From the NCBI GenBank assembly GCA_012514645.1, contig JAAYZW010000022.1:1-38279 (forward strand): a stretch of DNA of 38,279 nucleotides, written 5' to 3'. The stretch's first letter is position 1. Each line of letters starts with the position of its first letter. The notes under the pieces are model-generated. The model made no database searches and was not told the DNA's origin. It saw only the letters and a list, made by a program, of their open reading frames with translations. Below, piece by piece: positions 23,725 through 27,783 of this stretch. The stretch comes from Chloroflexota bacterium (GTDB lineage Bacteria; Chloroflexota; Anaerolineae; Anaerolineales; Anaerolineaceae). Both the position numbers and the translations under genes were made by a program.

Positions 23725-25653
23725 ATGAAACGATTTACACTGGCAATGATGATTTTTATCCTTTTGTTTAGCTTAATTCCCAGTGGAGCGGTTGAAGCTG
23801 ATGACCAAATTACTTGGAAAAAGTCTGATAATGGTATCAACGCAGCGTGGGTTTATTCCATCGTAATTGACCCTATCCTTCCGAACAATCTCTATGTTGG
23901 CACAGCTTATGCGGGTGTGTTCAAATCAAAGGACGGGGGTTTGACCTGGCAGGCTGTCAACGATGGACTATCATCTCTTCAAATCAGAGTTTTGACGATT
24001 GACCCTGCAAATCCACAAATTCTTTACACCGCCACCTCGGGTGCAGGACTTTTTAAAAGCATCAATGGAGGAACAAGTTGGCAACTCCTGGATACTCCGT
24101 TTAGCGAGGTTTCTGCCCTGGCGATTGACCCGACCAAACCGACTACGATTTATGCTGGCACGATCGATGATGGCATCTACAAAAGCACCAACTCAGGAGT
24201 TAGCTGGAATGCGATTGGCTTGACCAGCGACTCGATAAGTTCCATTGCGATTGACCCAATAGACCCCGATATCATTTACGCTGGCACCCACTATGATGGA
24301 ATTTACAAAAGTATAAACGGTGGCGAGGGTTGGGTAAAGAAAATTGATTACCTTGAAGTTGAAATTGTAGTCATCGACCCTCAAAACCCTGATATTGTTT
24401 ATGTTGGCACCTGGAGTTCCAGGATCTATAAAAGTATTGACGGCGGTGAGAACTGGGGTCAGTTGACCAATGGGCTGACCACCTCGAGCGTATTATCGCT
24501 GGCAGTCTCCCAAAGTAACCCTTTAATATTATTTGCCGGAACGGACGTTGGCGTCTTTAAGAGTGTCGATAAGGGGGAAAACTGGACCGCGGTTAATGCA
24601 GGTCTCGGTGAAGCACGGATATATTCTCTCGCAATCGACCCGAGTTCAGCAGAAACCGTTTATATCGGATCATACGATCCTGGTTTGTTCAAGACAGTCA
24701 ACAGCGGCTCGAGTTGGACGGTAATCAATGATGGAATCACCGGAGAATACATAAAAACTATGGCGATCAATCCGAGCAATTCGAATGTTATATTTGCCGG
24801 AACATTCAATGGTGTCTACAGGAGCCTTGATGCAGCAGCGAGCTGGAGCCTTTCCTCTGTTGGTTTGGATAATAAGGATACGGATGTCATCGTGATTAAT
24901 CCTCTTCAACCTACCACGGTCTACGCGGGCACAAATTCCGGGGTTTACAAAAGCACTGATTCAGGCGATACCTGGAAAATCGCCGACCAAGCATTTCAGG
25001 AAACAATTTTCTCAATGGCAATAAACCCAATAAATCCCAATATTGTTTACGCGGGAGTGATGTATGGAGTTTACAAAAGTGAAAACGCTGGTGAAACCTG
25101 GACATATACTTCAAGCTCGATGAATAACGAGACTGTACGTGCGCTGGTGGTAGACCCACTTAATCCGACGACGATCTATTCCGGCACCGCAGGCATGGGA
25201 GGAGTCTATAAGAGTAACAATGAAGGAGGCAATTGGATCCGAATTGGTTCTGGAATTAATACAGACATTGTGTCATTAGTGGTCGACCCATCAGACAGTA
25301 ACGTTATCTACGCCGGGACATACGGTGGAGTACATAAAAGCATCGATGCTGGAATGAATTGGGAGTGGCTGAAAATTGGGTTAACCTACGGTGCAATTGA
25401 GGATTTGACGATAGACCCTACGGACACAAATGTTATTTTTGCTGCTACTTTCATGGATGGTGTATTTAAGAGCGTGAACATGGCAGAGAGTTGGGAACCG
25501 GTAAATTCAGGGCTGCAAACTAAAATGATCATGTCCCTGGCAATTGACCCGAATGACACCAGCACGATGTATGCCGGGACGTATCGGGGAGGGTTGTATA
25601 AGGCAACAAGCAGCAATCATGGTATATATTTGCCGTTGGTGTTGAGCCCGTAA
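23725..25653 (+). CDS. Secreted BNR/VPS10-like beta-propeller repeat protein
   Basis: A 642-residue protein with an N-terminal signal peptide (basic MKR, hydrophobic core to about residue 22, likely cleavage near AVEA). The rest is about 14 repeats of roughly 43-45 residues following the pattern IDP..P..IYAGT..GVYKS.D.G..W, as in sialidase-type BNR, Ycf48 and sortilin propellers. It ends HGIYLPLVLSP, a short hydrophobic C-terminal motif frequent on exported proteins of this phylum. No catalytic domain is visible. Binding of a ligand or the cell surface is inferred. It is monocistronic with its own leader. Confidence 0.85.
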   Translation: MKRFTLAMMIFILLFSLIPSGAVEADDQITWKKSDNGINAAWVYSIVIDPILPNNLYVGTAYAGVFKSKDGGLTWQAVNDGLSSLQIRVLTIDPANPQILYTATSGAGLFKSINGGTSWQLLDTPFSEVSALAIDPTKPTTIYAGTIDDGIYKSTNSGVSWNAIGLTSDSISSIAIDPIDPDIIYAGTHYDGIYKSINGGEGWVKKIDYLEVEIVVIDPQNPDIVYVGTWSSRIYKSIDGGENWGQLTNGLTTSSVLSLAVSQSNPLILFAGTDVGVFKSVDKGENWTAVNAGLGEARIYSLAIDPSSAETVYIGSYDPGLFKTVNSGSSWTVINDGITGEYIKTMAINPSNSNVIFAGTFNGVYRSLDAAASWSLSSVGLDNKDTDVIVINPLQPTTVYAGTNSGVYKSTDSGDTWKIADQAFQETIFSMAINPINPNIVYAGVMYGVYKSENAGETWTYTSSSMNNETVRALVVDPLNPTTIYSGTAGMGGVYKSNNEGGNWIRIGSGINTDIVSLVVDPSDSNVIYAGTYGGVHKSIDAGMNWEWLKIGLTYGAIEDLTIDPTDTNVIFAATFMDGVFKSVNMAESWEPVNSGLQTKMIMSLAIDPNDTSTMYAGTYRGGLYKATSSNHGIYLPLVLSP

Positions 25654-25727: not shown

Positions 25728-25749
25728 ATGCCGAGTTTTGGCTCGGCAT
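25728..25749. other. Hairpin upstream of the glmS promoter
   Basis: A perfect 8-bp inverted repeat ATGCCGAG (25728-25735) and CTCGGCAT (25742-25749) with a 6-base loop. There is no following T-run, so a terminator for the repeat-protein gene is possible but not shown. A second hairpin, CCGACA (25674-25679) and TGTCGG (25690-25695), lies nearer the stop codon. Confidence 0.5.
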
Positions 25750-25768
25750 ACATATTGCAGCCTTATTG

Positions 25769-25774
25769 TATAAT
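25769..25774 (+). promoter_or_regulatory. glmS promoter -10 element
   Basis: TATAAT, with a start point expected near 25781, about 15 bases before the ribozyme cleavage site. No good -35 is visible at 16-18 bases. Confidence 0.5.
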
Positions 25775-25794
25775 AGTACCAACTTGGAAAACTA

Positions 25795-25905
25795 AGCGCC
25801 TGACCCGCAGCAGCGGGTGACGAGGTGGGAGGTTTCTCCTCTCAAGAGGAGACTAACCATGGCAACATGGGAAAATCGAAAATTCGGCGGAAGCCTCCAG
25901 GGTTC
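25795..25905 (+). ncRNA. glmS self-cleaving ribozyme (glucosamine-6-phosphate riboswitch)
   Basis: Conserved glmS ribozyme blocks occur in order ahead of glmS. They are AAGCGCC (cleavage expected between A25795 and G25796), P1 ACCCGC/GCGGGT (25803-25808 with 25813-25818), GACGAGG (25819-25825), the P2 strand GGAGG (25828-25832) pairing CCTCC (25894-25898), and ATCGAAAATTCGGCGGAAGCC just before the second P2 strand. Between the P2 strands are two extra hairpins: TCTCCTC/GAGGAGA (25835-25841 with 25846-25852) and CCATG/CATGG (25857-25861 with 25866-25870) closed by a GCAA tetraloop. No P3-P4 domain is seen after P2. In the family, glucosamine-6-phosphate triggers cleavage and lowers glmS mRNA. 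Confidence 0.9.
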
Positions 25906-25941
25906 CCCTTTTTCCAAGAACAAGTAATCAAAGGAGCACTT

Positions 25942-27783
25942 ATGTGTGGAATTGTTGCCTACATTGGCTGGCAGGATGCCATGCCGATTGTCTTGGATGG
26001 ATTAAAAAAGCTGGAATACCGGGGTTATGACTCTGCCGGGCTGGCTATCCTTGAAGATAAAAAGATTGAGATAAGGCGAGTTGCCGGTAAAGTGGCAGCG
26101 TTGGAAAACCTGGTTTGCGAAAACCCCCTGGTTGGAAGTATAGGCATTGGTCATACCCGTTGGGCGACGCATGGCGTTCCAAATGAGCAAAACGCCCACC
26201 CGCATATGGGAGTGTCTGACCGGATTGTGGTTGTGCATAACGGCATTGTTGAAAACTTCCTGGAACTGCGTGAAGAGCTGGTGGCGAAAGGGGTTGAATT
26301 TAAATCTGAGACTGATACGGAGACGATCGCCCACCTGGTTGAGATTTATTATCGCGAAACGAATGACCTGGTTCTGGCAGTGCGCAAAACCCTGAAAAAA
26401 CTAAAAGGCGCGCATGGTTTGGTGGTGATGTCTACGGTTGAGCCGGAAAAACTGATTGCCGCGAGGCTGGGGAATGCCGGCGGGGTGGCATTGGGTGTCG
26501 GGGAAAATGAGATGTTCATTGCCAGCGACATCCCGGCGATTGTTAATCACACCCGCATGATGACCTTTCTGGAATCCGCGCATTTGGCAGTGGTGACACG
26601 GGATGGGTTTATGCTCCAGGACTTGGAAGGAGATTCGGTTAACGGGGTTGTGGAGGAGGTTCCCTGGGACGCGGTGGCAGCTGAGAAGGGGAAATACCGC
26701 CATTTTATGCAAAAAGAGATCCACGAGCAGGTTCGGTCGCTGGCAGATACACTCAGCGGCAGGATTGATTATGAAAGCCATCGAATATGGTTGCCCGGGT
26801 TGAATCTTAGCGCCGCGAAGGCGAAAAAAATCAAGAAAATCTTCATCACAGCATGCGGTACGGCGGCGTATACCGGTATGGTTGGCAAAACGCTGATCGA
26901 ACAAATTGCCCGCGTACCGGTTGAGGTAATGGTCGCTTCTGAGTTTCGTTATGCCGACCCAATTTTGGAAGAGGGCACAGTGGTCCTGGTAATCTCACAA
27001 TCTGGCGAGACAGCGGATACTCTGGCGGCAATGGAGGAGGCTCGCAGCAAAGGCACTGAAGTGTGGTCGATTGTCAACGCGATCGGCTCCCAGGCGATGC
27101 GCGTAGCTGATGGATCGATCTCGATGCAGGTTGGTCCTGAGATTGGGGTAGCCTCCACCAAGGCGTTTACCGCGCCAGTCTTGGATCTATATATGCTGGC
27201 GGTCTATCTTGCAGACCTGCGCGGCGGGCTGGAGGAAGCACGGAGAATCGAATTAATCGAAGATCTGCTGTCAGTCCCTTCGTTCGTAGAGAGAGCGCTG
27301 GCACGGGAGGATCAGGTCAGGGAAGTGGCGGAGCGCTATAAGGATATGCAAGGTGCGCTCTATCTAGGGCGTGGTATCAATATGCCAATTGCCTATGAGG
27401 GGGCGCTTAAGCTCAAGGAGATTTCTTATAAGCATGCTGAAGGGTATCCGGCTGGCGAGATGAAACACGGACCGATTGCGTTGGTTGATGAACACATGCC
27501 GGTGATTGTGATCGCGTCGCAGGATCCCTGGTATGACAAAATGGTCAGCCAGATTGAGCAGACAAAGGCGCGCAATGGTAAAGTGATCGCCATAGCGACA
27601 GACGGGGACGAGAGGATTGGAGAGCTTGCCGATGAAGTGTTGTGGATTCCGGCGGTTCCCTGGCTGCTGAGTCCTGTTGTGACGGTGATCCCGCTGCAGC
27701 TGTTTGCTTATCATGTGGCGGCTTTGAATGGTTTGGATATTGATCAACCGCGAAATTTGGCAAAGTCGGTGACCGTGGAATGA
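25942..27783 (+). CDS. glmS: Glutamine--fructose-6-phosphate aminotransferase GlmS
   Basis: A 613-residue enzyme that makes glucosamine-6-phosphate from fructose-6-phosphate and glutamine, the first step towards UDP-GlcNAc. The start is fixed by the catalytic Cys after Met (MCGIVAYIGWQ); an earlier in-frame start lies inside the ribozyme. The glutaminase domain has LEYRGYDSAGLA, IGHTRWATHG and HNGIVENF. Two SIS domains follow (ITACGTAAYTG, ISQSGETADTLAA, STKAFTAPV, EGYPAGEMKHGPIAL), and it ends in the characteristic PRNLAKSVTVE. SD AAAGGAGC. Regulation is by the upstream ribozyme. Confidence 0.97.
   Translation: MCGIVAYIGWQDAMPIVLDGLKKLEYRGYDSAGLAILEDKKIEIRRVAGKVAALENLVCENPLVGSIGIGHTRWATHGVPNEQNAHPHMGVSDRIVVVHNGIVENFLELREELVAKGVEFKSETDTETIAHLVEIYYRETNDLVLAVRKTLKKLKGAHGLVVMSTVEPEKLIAARLGNAGGVALGVGENEMFIASDIPAIVNHTRMMTFLESAHLAVVTRDGFMLQDLEGDSVNGVVEEVPWDAVAAEKGKYRHFMQKEIHEQVRSLADTLSGRIDYESHRIWLPGLNLSAAKAKKIKKIFITACGTAAYTGMVGKTLIEQIARVPVEVMVASEFRYADPILEEGTVVLVISQSGETADTLAAMEEARSKGTEVWSIVNAIGSQAMRVADGSISMQVGPEIGVASTKAFTAPVLDLYMLAVYLADLRGGLEEARRIELIEDLLSVPSFVERALAREDQVREVAERYKDMQGALYLGRGINMPIAYEGALKLKEISYKHAEGYPAGEMKHGPIALVDEHMPVIVIASQDPWYDKMVSQIEQTKARNGKVIAIATDGDERIGELADEVLWIPAVPWLLSPVVTVIPLQLFAYHVAALNGLDIDQPRNLAKSVTVE

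Follow-up and report, generated by a model that had tools for sequence, protein, structure and literature searches.

The glmS ribozyme is the textbook metabolite-activated ribozyme. In the window (the whole stretch of DNA analysed here, 38,279 nucleotides, contig 220 of a 2.03-Mb draft genome), an RNA with the core of this class and a remodelled periphery lies directly 5' of glmS. The core parts named in the initial annotation (AGCGCC, P1, GACGAGG, P2 and CGGCGG) are all present, and a further helix, P0, makes the element span 25783-25918. The pairing scheme for the core positions was taken from PMC7125110; the features of the locus are as follows.

25769-25774, forward strand: candidate -10 box (TATAAT), from the sequence; the transcript start would be near 25780.
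25783-25791, forward strand: 5' strand of P0 (CUUGGAAAA), part of the leader that precedes the cleavage site; it is present in the minimum free energy (MFE) fold.
25795-25796, forward strand: predicted cleavage site between A(-1) and G1, by homology with the AGCGCC core (25795-25800).
25797-25802, forward strand: 5' strand of P2.2 (C2, G3, C4, C5, the bulged U6, which is U25801, and G7), pairing with 25885-25889.
25803-25818, forward strand: P1 hairpin of 6 bp, with compensatory changes at five of six pairs.
25819-25825, forward strand: core strand GACGAGG, invariant in 60 of 60 relatives.
25828-25833, forward strand: 5' strand of P2, pairing with 25893-25898 in 100% of cells, two of the pairs showing double changes.
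25835-25852, forward strand: extra hairpin 1, 7 bp with a UCAA loop and compensatory changes at all seven pairs.
25853-25856, forward strand: linker C-UAA, which with GAA at 25871-25873 flanks hairpin 2 as an internal loop.
25857-25870, forward strand: extra hairpin 2, 5 bp with a GCAA loop (not conserved) and compensatory changes at all five pairs.
25875-25878, forward strand: A-U-C-G, strand of the GlcN6P pocket and 3' strand of P2.1, conserved in 59-60 of 60 relatives; role from PMC7125110.
25885-25890, forward strand: CGGCGG, 3' strand of P2.2 and active-site G, conserved in relatives except that G53 is G or A.
25893-25898, forward strand: 3' strand of P2, pairing with 25828-25833.
25899-25909, forward strand: mini-P3 hairpin (AGGG-UUC-CCCU), 4 bp; the helix position has double changes at seven of seven pairs across the family.
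25910-25918, forward strand: 3' strand of P0 (UUUUCCAAG), directly abutting P3 and pairing with CUUGGAAAA.
25930-25936, forward strand: Shine-Dalgarno-like AAAGGAG, from the sequence.
25942-27783, forward strand: glmS (glutamine--fructose-6-phosphate transaminase, 613 aa; TIGR01135, 767 bits, cut-off 418).

No matching -35 box was called for the TATAAT at 25769-25774, and a -10 spacing of 19-20 nt before A(-1) recurs in 17 of 58 family relatives; if this box is used, it might give a leader of about 15 nt upstream of the cut, nearly all of it P0. Between the upstream ORF and this box lies an inverted repeat (ATGCCGAG-TTTTGG-CTCGGCAT, 25729-25750) lacking a clear T-run. The 642-aa repeat protein that adjoins glmS (23725-25653) matches NF045728 (F510_1955 family glycosylhydrolase) and has no evident link to it.

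An Infernal search with the Rfam glmS model (RF00234), as proposed in the initial annotation, yielded an alignment at 25784-25931 that covers the full model, though with 27.8 bits (E 1.3e-4). Because this score lies under the gathering score of 37, which is a search threshold and no biological feature, default scanning misses the ribozyme, and the gathering-threshold Rfam scan of the window reported a tRNA alone. The score is low because the architecture is remodelled; siblings from the same family reach 53.1 and 49.8 bits, far over the cut-off. RF00234 matches are found in 114 of 147 genomes of the family, many with two matches, and 42 of the 147 pass the gathering cut-off. In a sample of the phylum Chloroflexota, the ribozyme occurs in 125 of 400 genomes, and its presence here, which had been thought of distributional interest, is ordinary. 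The remodelled form is itself widespread, with 234 of 396 same-class genomes matching the model built in this analysis. Five matches to plain glmS ribozymes on viral contigs were rejected as none was ribozyme-like and all were apparently due to chance. Pattern matches labelled Spirochaetaceae, Paludibacter, Clostridiales, Gracilibacteria and Bryobacterales (loci L139, L163, L195, L199 and L208) represent mis-binned contigs, transfer or, for L195, chance.

For comparative analysis, 111 loci were extracted from the family and 119 from named genomes. With 39 glmS leaders aligned by MAFFT alone, both sides change at 35 of 48 pairs, including double changes at every pair in both extra hairpins, P3 and P0; the initial annotation had seen the two hairpins as clean, and they are. 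The covariation score is 0.520 compared with 0.209 in shuffles and at most 0.146 when the structure is slid, and the whole-structure score was matched by none of 500 shuffles. An alignment of 60 relatives fitted to the model contains 681 double-change cells versus 203 in shuffles (0/500), and the plain MAFFT alignment gives the same picture.

Among the 60 relatives, which were picked by Infernal and are free of AGCG selection bias, every position of the core and the active site is invariant or almost invariant, with G1 in 60 and A(-1) in 59; the regular expression used for larger sets required AGCG, and the invariance of those four letters there is partly selected. P2.1 is formed by C25821-A25823 (CGA) with 25876-25878 (UCG), conserved in 59-60 of 60, and G25822 is the equivalent of the catalytic guanine. 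P2.2 is invariant save for C5/G53, a C-G pair in 21 of 39 leaders and unpaired in that register in the rest; the glmS relatives lacking this pair likely have a shifted P2.2 bulge, and a bulge at position 5 fits many glmS copies (AGCGCAUG/CAGCGG). In the MFE fold the GCGCC and GAGG strands pair with each other instead of forming the active pseudoknot, which counts against activity, though the program cannot predict pseudoknots.

The two extra hairpins had been assigned to the loop between the P2 strands. More exactly, the insert follows P2 and ends just before A-U-C-G, the strand that makes P2.1. Hairpin 1 has a folding energy of -10.1 kcal/mol (9 of 200 shuffles equally stable) and hairpin 2 of -7.1 kcal/mol (2 of 200). 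It had been proposed that hairpin 2 might dock within the core through its GCAA loop and take over the stabilising role of P3-P4. The window does carry this GCAA tetraloop, but hairpin 2 loops vary freely among relatives, with GNRA in just 9 of 203, and both hairpins occur in P4-retaining ribozymes as well, which makes such docking very unlikely. Hairpin 2 had been chosen because in the window it carries GCAA and hairpin 1 carries UCAA. Since P4-retaining relatives have both hairpins too, the insert did not arise as a P4 replacement.

A different contact is conceivable, in which hairpin 1, through its conserved GCRA loop, and the UAA/GAA internal loop at the base of hairpin 2 make tertiary contacts with the core, forming an A-rich stack like the classic P4 internal loop. 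Hairpin 1 has a near-constant 7 bp, and 130 of 204 relatives carry GCGA or GCAA as its loop (GNRA in 132), and the UAA before hairpin 2 and the GAAAA after it are invariant or nearly so in the 60 relatives, as strongly conserved as the active site. The arrangement around hairpin 2 resembles a UAA/GAN internal loop. On the other hand, the window itself departs from the GCRA consensus with its UCAA loop, and P4-bearing relatives share the motifs, so that the contact would be additional to that of P4 and no copy of it. We regard it as a serious possibility, if a little less than an even one, and it is compatible with a functional ribozyme.

The strand downstream of P2 had been read as running into a T-run with no room for the usual P3-P4 stacks. 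This T-run is the 3' strand of P0, a 9-bp helix between the part of the leader 5' of the cut and the sequence that follows P3. The leader is unpaired in the RF00234 consensus and P0 is absent from that model. Across the family, double changes occur at seven of seven main pairs of P0. Its main helix is 80% paired in the model-fitted alignment of 60, an alignment that leans towards structure, and it is out of register in some rows of the plain MAFFT alignment. When each leader strand was compared with its own and with swapped 3' partners, the own partner was favoured with z values, somewhat inflated by the relatedness of the sequences, of 11.7 for the glmS type of the family, 8.1 for glmS leaders with P4 from other Anaerolineae and 4.6 for the type found before glnA (see below). 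Nine plain glmS ribozymes from other classes of the Chloroflexota gave no P0 signal in the same comparison (own 11.6, swapped 11.7). The predicted P0 helix covaries throughout Anaerolineae.

The identity of the T-run also bears on whether GGGTTCCCC and the T-run could be an intrinsic terminator acting as a transcription attenuator. Such a reading would draw on the short G+C stem followed by T, but no terminator was called in the window, the stem is worth -3.4 kcal/mol with 61 of 200 shuffles equally stable, and in relatives the position of the T-run shifts in concert with the leader, as expected for a P0 strand. We therefore consider a terminator extremely improbable.

That P3-P4 are missing, as the initial annotation had stated, holds for part of the region. 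P3 survives as the covarying 4-bp hairpin at 25899-25909, which is weak when folded alone; P3.1 and P4 are truly absent from the window element. A strict P4 signature (a GNRA-capped stem flanked by A-rich strands), which the window lacks, was found in one of 59 glmS leaders of the family, a single case that looks like a chance match. It was also found in 37 of 50 glnA leaders of the same family, and the wider scan gave 39 glmS leaders with it out of 75. Because the latter two groups often keep P4, its loss is, judged from sequence comparison, in all likelihood a derived trait and one typical of glmS copies in the family of the window. The loss is compatible with activity since a 66-nt core lacking P3-P4 cleaves (PMC7125110), and P3.1 and P4, being peripheral, do not define the class. 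In Bacillus subtilis P4 contacts P2.1 through its internal loop and P1 through its tetraloop, and these contacts reinforce the ligand pocket (PMC11602151); for this reason the window RNA may be slow or Mg-hungry.

Characterised members have their pocket reinforced by P3.1 and P4 (PMC11602151); the lack of both here and the low Rfam score could also be taken to mean that the RNA is a ligand-binding scaffold or a relic, still with the GlcN6P fold but past useful cleavage. This is very improbable: the letters of the cleavage site and active site stay conserved in 60 family members as the helices drift, and with no terminator downstream in the window there would be no visible output without cleavage.

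On the evidence of sequence, position, conservation and covariation, from which we infer cleavage, ligand and decay, the element at 25783-25918 is very probably a glmS ribozyme that depends on GlcN6P for self-cleavage and represses the glmS gene downstream, and the window RNA would almost certainly cleave itself. GlcN6P, the product of GlmS, would bind beside P2.1 and P2.2 and serve as the cofactor for cleavage between A25795 and G25796, and the mRNA with its 5'-OH end would then be degraded. The Anaerolineae version has retained the P2-P2.1-P2.2 double pseudoknot and the active site, gained two hairpins between P2 and the ligand-pocket strand that are joined by the nearly invariant UAA/GAA internal loop, and lost P3.1 and P4 in the family of the window. 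P0 acts as a clamp between the leader and the sequence that follows P3, and together with the insert it would help to hold the core in place.

The search for relatives showed that the same ribozyme precedes type I glutamine synthetase (glnA) at about 60 distinct loci (59 in one count), for example L016 (1494-1760) and L084. The glnA assignment is based on PF03951 at one locus and on a sequence motif at the remainder. The loci L002-L111 include glnA loci, which are spread through much of the family; L084 is from Longilinea arvoryzae (NZ_DF967972.1). In addition, at least three copies (L116, L142 and L173), and possibly L129 and L196, precede a glutamate-synthase-like gene, with the PF01645 match checked on the L116 and L129 genes. 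That nitrogen-assimilation genes stand under the same RNA is the most interesting outcome of the analysis, and with these copies the glmS ribozyme class would have a broader regulatory reach. We found no report linking the glmS ribozyme to glnA in the literature searched. The L016 leader scores 42.9 bits with RF00234, and because it passes the Rfam cut-off, matches like it may already stand in databases.

The glnA-linked relatives from Anaerolineaceae share with the window the insert, P0, P1, P2, P2.1 and the active-site letters. They differ in preceding glutamine synthetase, in keeping P3.1 and P4, in a relaxed G26 and in a moved P2.2 bulge. Their P3.1 and P4 show covariation in a column-based count; a free-window swap test for P3.1 gave no signal (z -0.3), probably because it took in letters of the P3 stem. 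In their P2.2 the bulge is at position 4 (C2-G56, G3-C55, R4 unpaired, C5-G54, U6-A53 and G7-C52; 38 of 38 in the alignment). An identical shift was inferred from the rescue of C4A by A6C in laboratory double mutants (PMC7125110), a migration that the glnA type thus reproduces in nature. Because the active-site letters are unchanged, GlcN6P would be the likeliest ligand of the glnA type; a changed ligand is also possible.

Two genomes of the window's genus carry both kinds of copy. The gene order in G075 (L284, contig C41) is ribozyme-glnA-ribozyme-glmS, and in G084 (L285, contig C2) glnA is followed by glmS with a model match before each gene. A PF00120 search found no glutamine synthetase in the window's own genome (G000) or in G074 and G080 of the same genus, which is why no paired glnA copy can be demonstrated in the genome of the window; this absence reflects either assembly gaps or real loss in part of the genus. 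A further glnA-type RNA (L220, Longilinea arvoryzae, G070:C1:2897102-2897239) stands before a short reading frame for about 46 aa (MAEENALPIEFNEIEDEY...), with matches in six family genomes. Upstream of glnA-type leaders, an (A)CAATTGAATA-like motif recurs 10-12 nt before the cleavage site and is perhaps a promoter element.

Terminator-like hairpins, often GGCAUGCC...GGCAUGCC with a U-rich tail, are present in 31 of 62 glnA-type leaders, and 32 of the 62 have CCCUUCC or a variant in J3/4 together with GGAAGGG-like letters downstream, a generous count since a few of the GGAAGGG-like matches lie inside the gene. In glnA/gltB leaders such as L084, L142 and L173, a GGAAGGG complementary to the J3/4 CCCUUCC is followed by GGCAUGCC-type hairpins with a U-rich tail. 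From their sequences, the glnA/gltB leaders are a possible terminator/antiterminator platform; the complements are short, and GGAAGGG could instead extend into the 5' half of the terminator. We tentatively suggest, as a speculative scenario, that duplicates of the glmS ribozyme in Anaerolineae were recruited by the genes for glutamine synthetase and glutamate synthase. A single amino-sugar signal, either GlcN6P or, if the ligand has drifted, a related amine, would then control the supply of glutamine as well as its use. In the recruited copies, cleavage would release the P0 leader strand, freeing the J3/4 CCCUUCC to bind the downstream GGAAGGG and decide on terminator formation. If true, this would be a self-cleaving ribozyme read out through transcription termination.

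The glmS ribozyme has been described as a GlcN6P sensor controlling the genes for GlcN6P synthesis (PMC10043782). With the classic RF00234 members of Bacillus and Thermoanaerobacter, the window RNA has in common the position 5' of glmS, the A(-1)/G1 site, P1, P2, P2.1, P2.2, P3 and the core letters; unlike these, it has two hairpins before the AUCG strand, an added P0, a shrunken P3 and neither P3.1 nor P4. The nine plain glmS ribozymes of other Chloroflexota classes (L266-L274) belong to the same phylum, stand before glmS and have the same core, but they possess P4 and lack both the insert and the P0 signal. Variants from Deinococcus-Thermus, in an account by McCown et al. 2011 (RNA 17:728), reportedly have extra stems in the catalytic core and altered peripheral parts. 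The window RNA may resemble them in its extra core stems and changed periphery. A natural lineage with a rebuilt periphery (P0 and two hairpins in, P4 out) offers ready-made test cases of what the periphery does. Set against these systems, the window RNA is a real member of the glmS ribozyme class with a lineage-specific architecture of P0 and a two-hairpin insert in the absence of P4.
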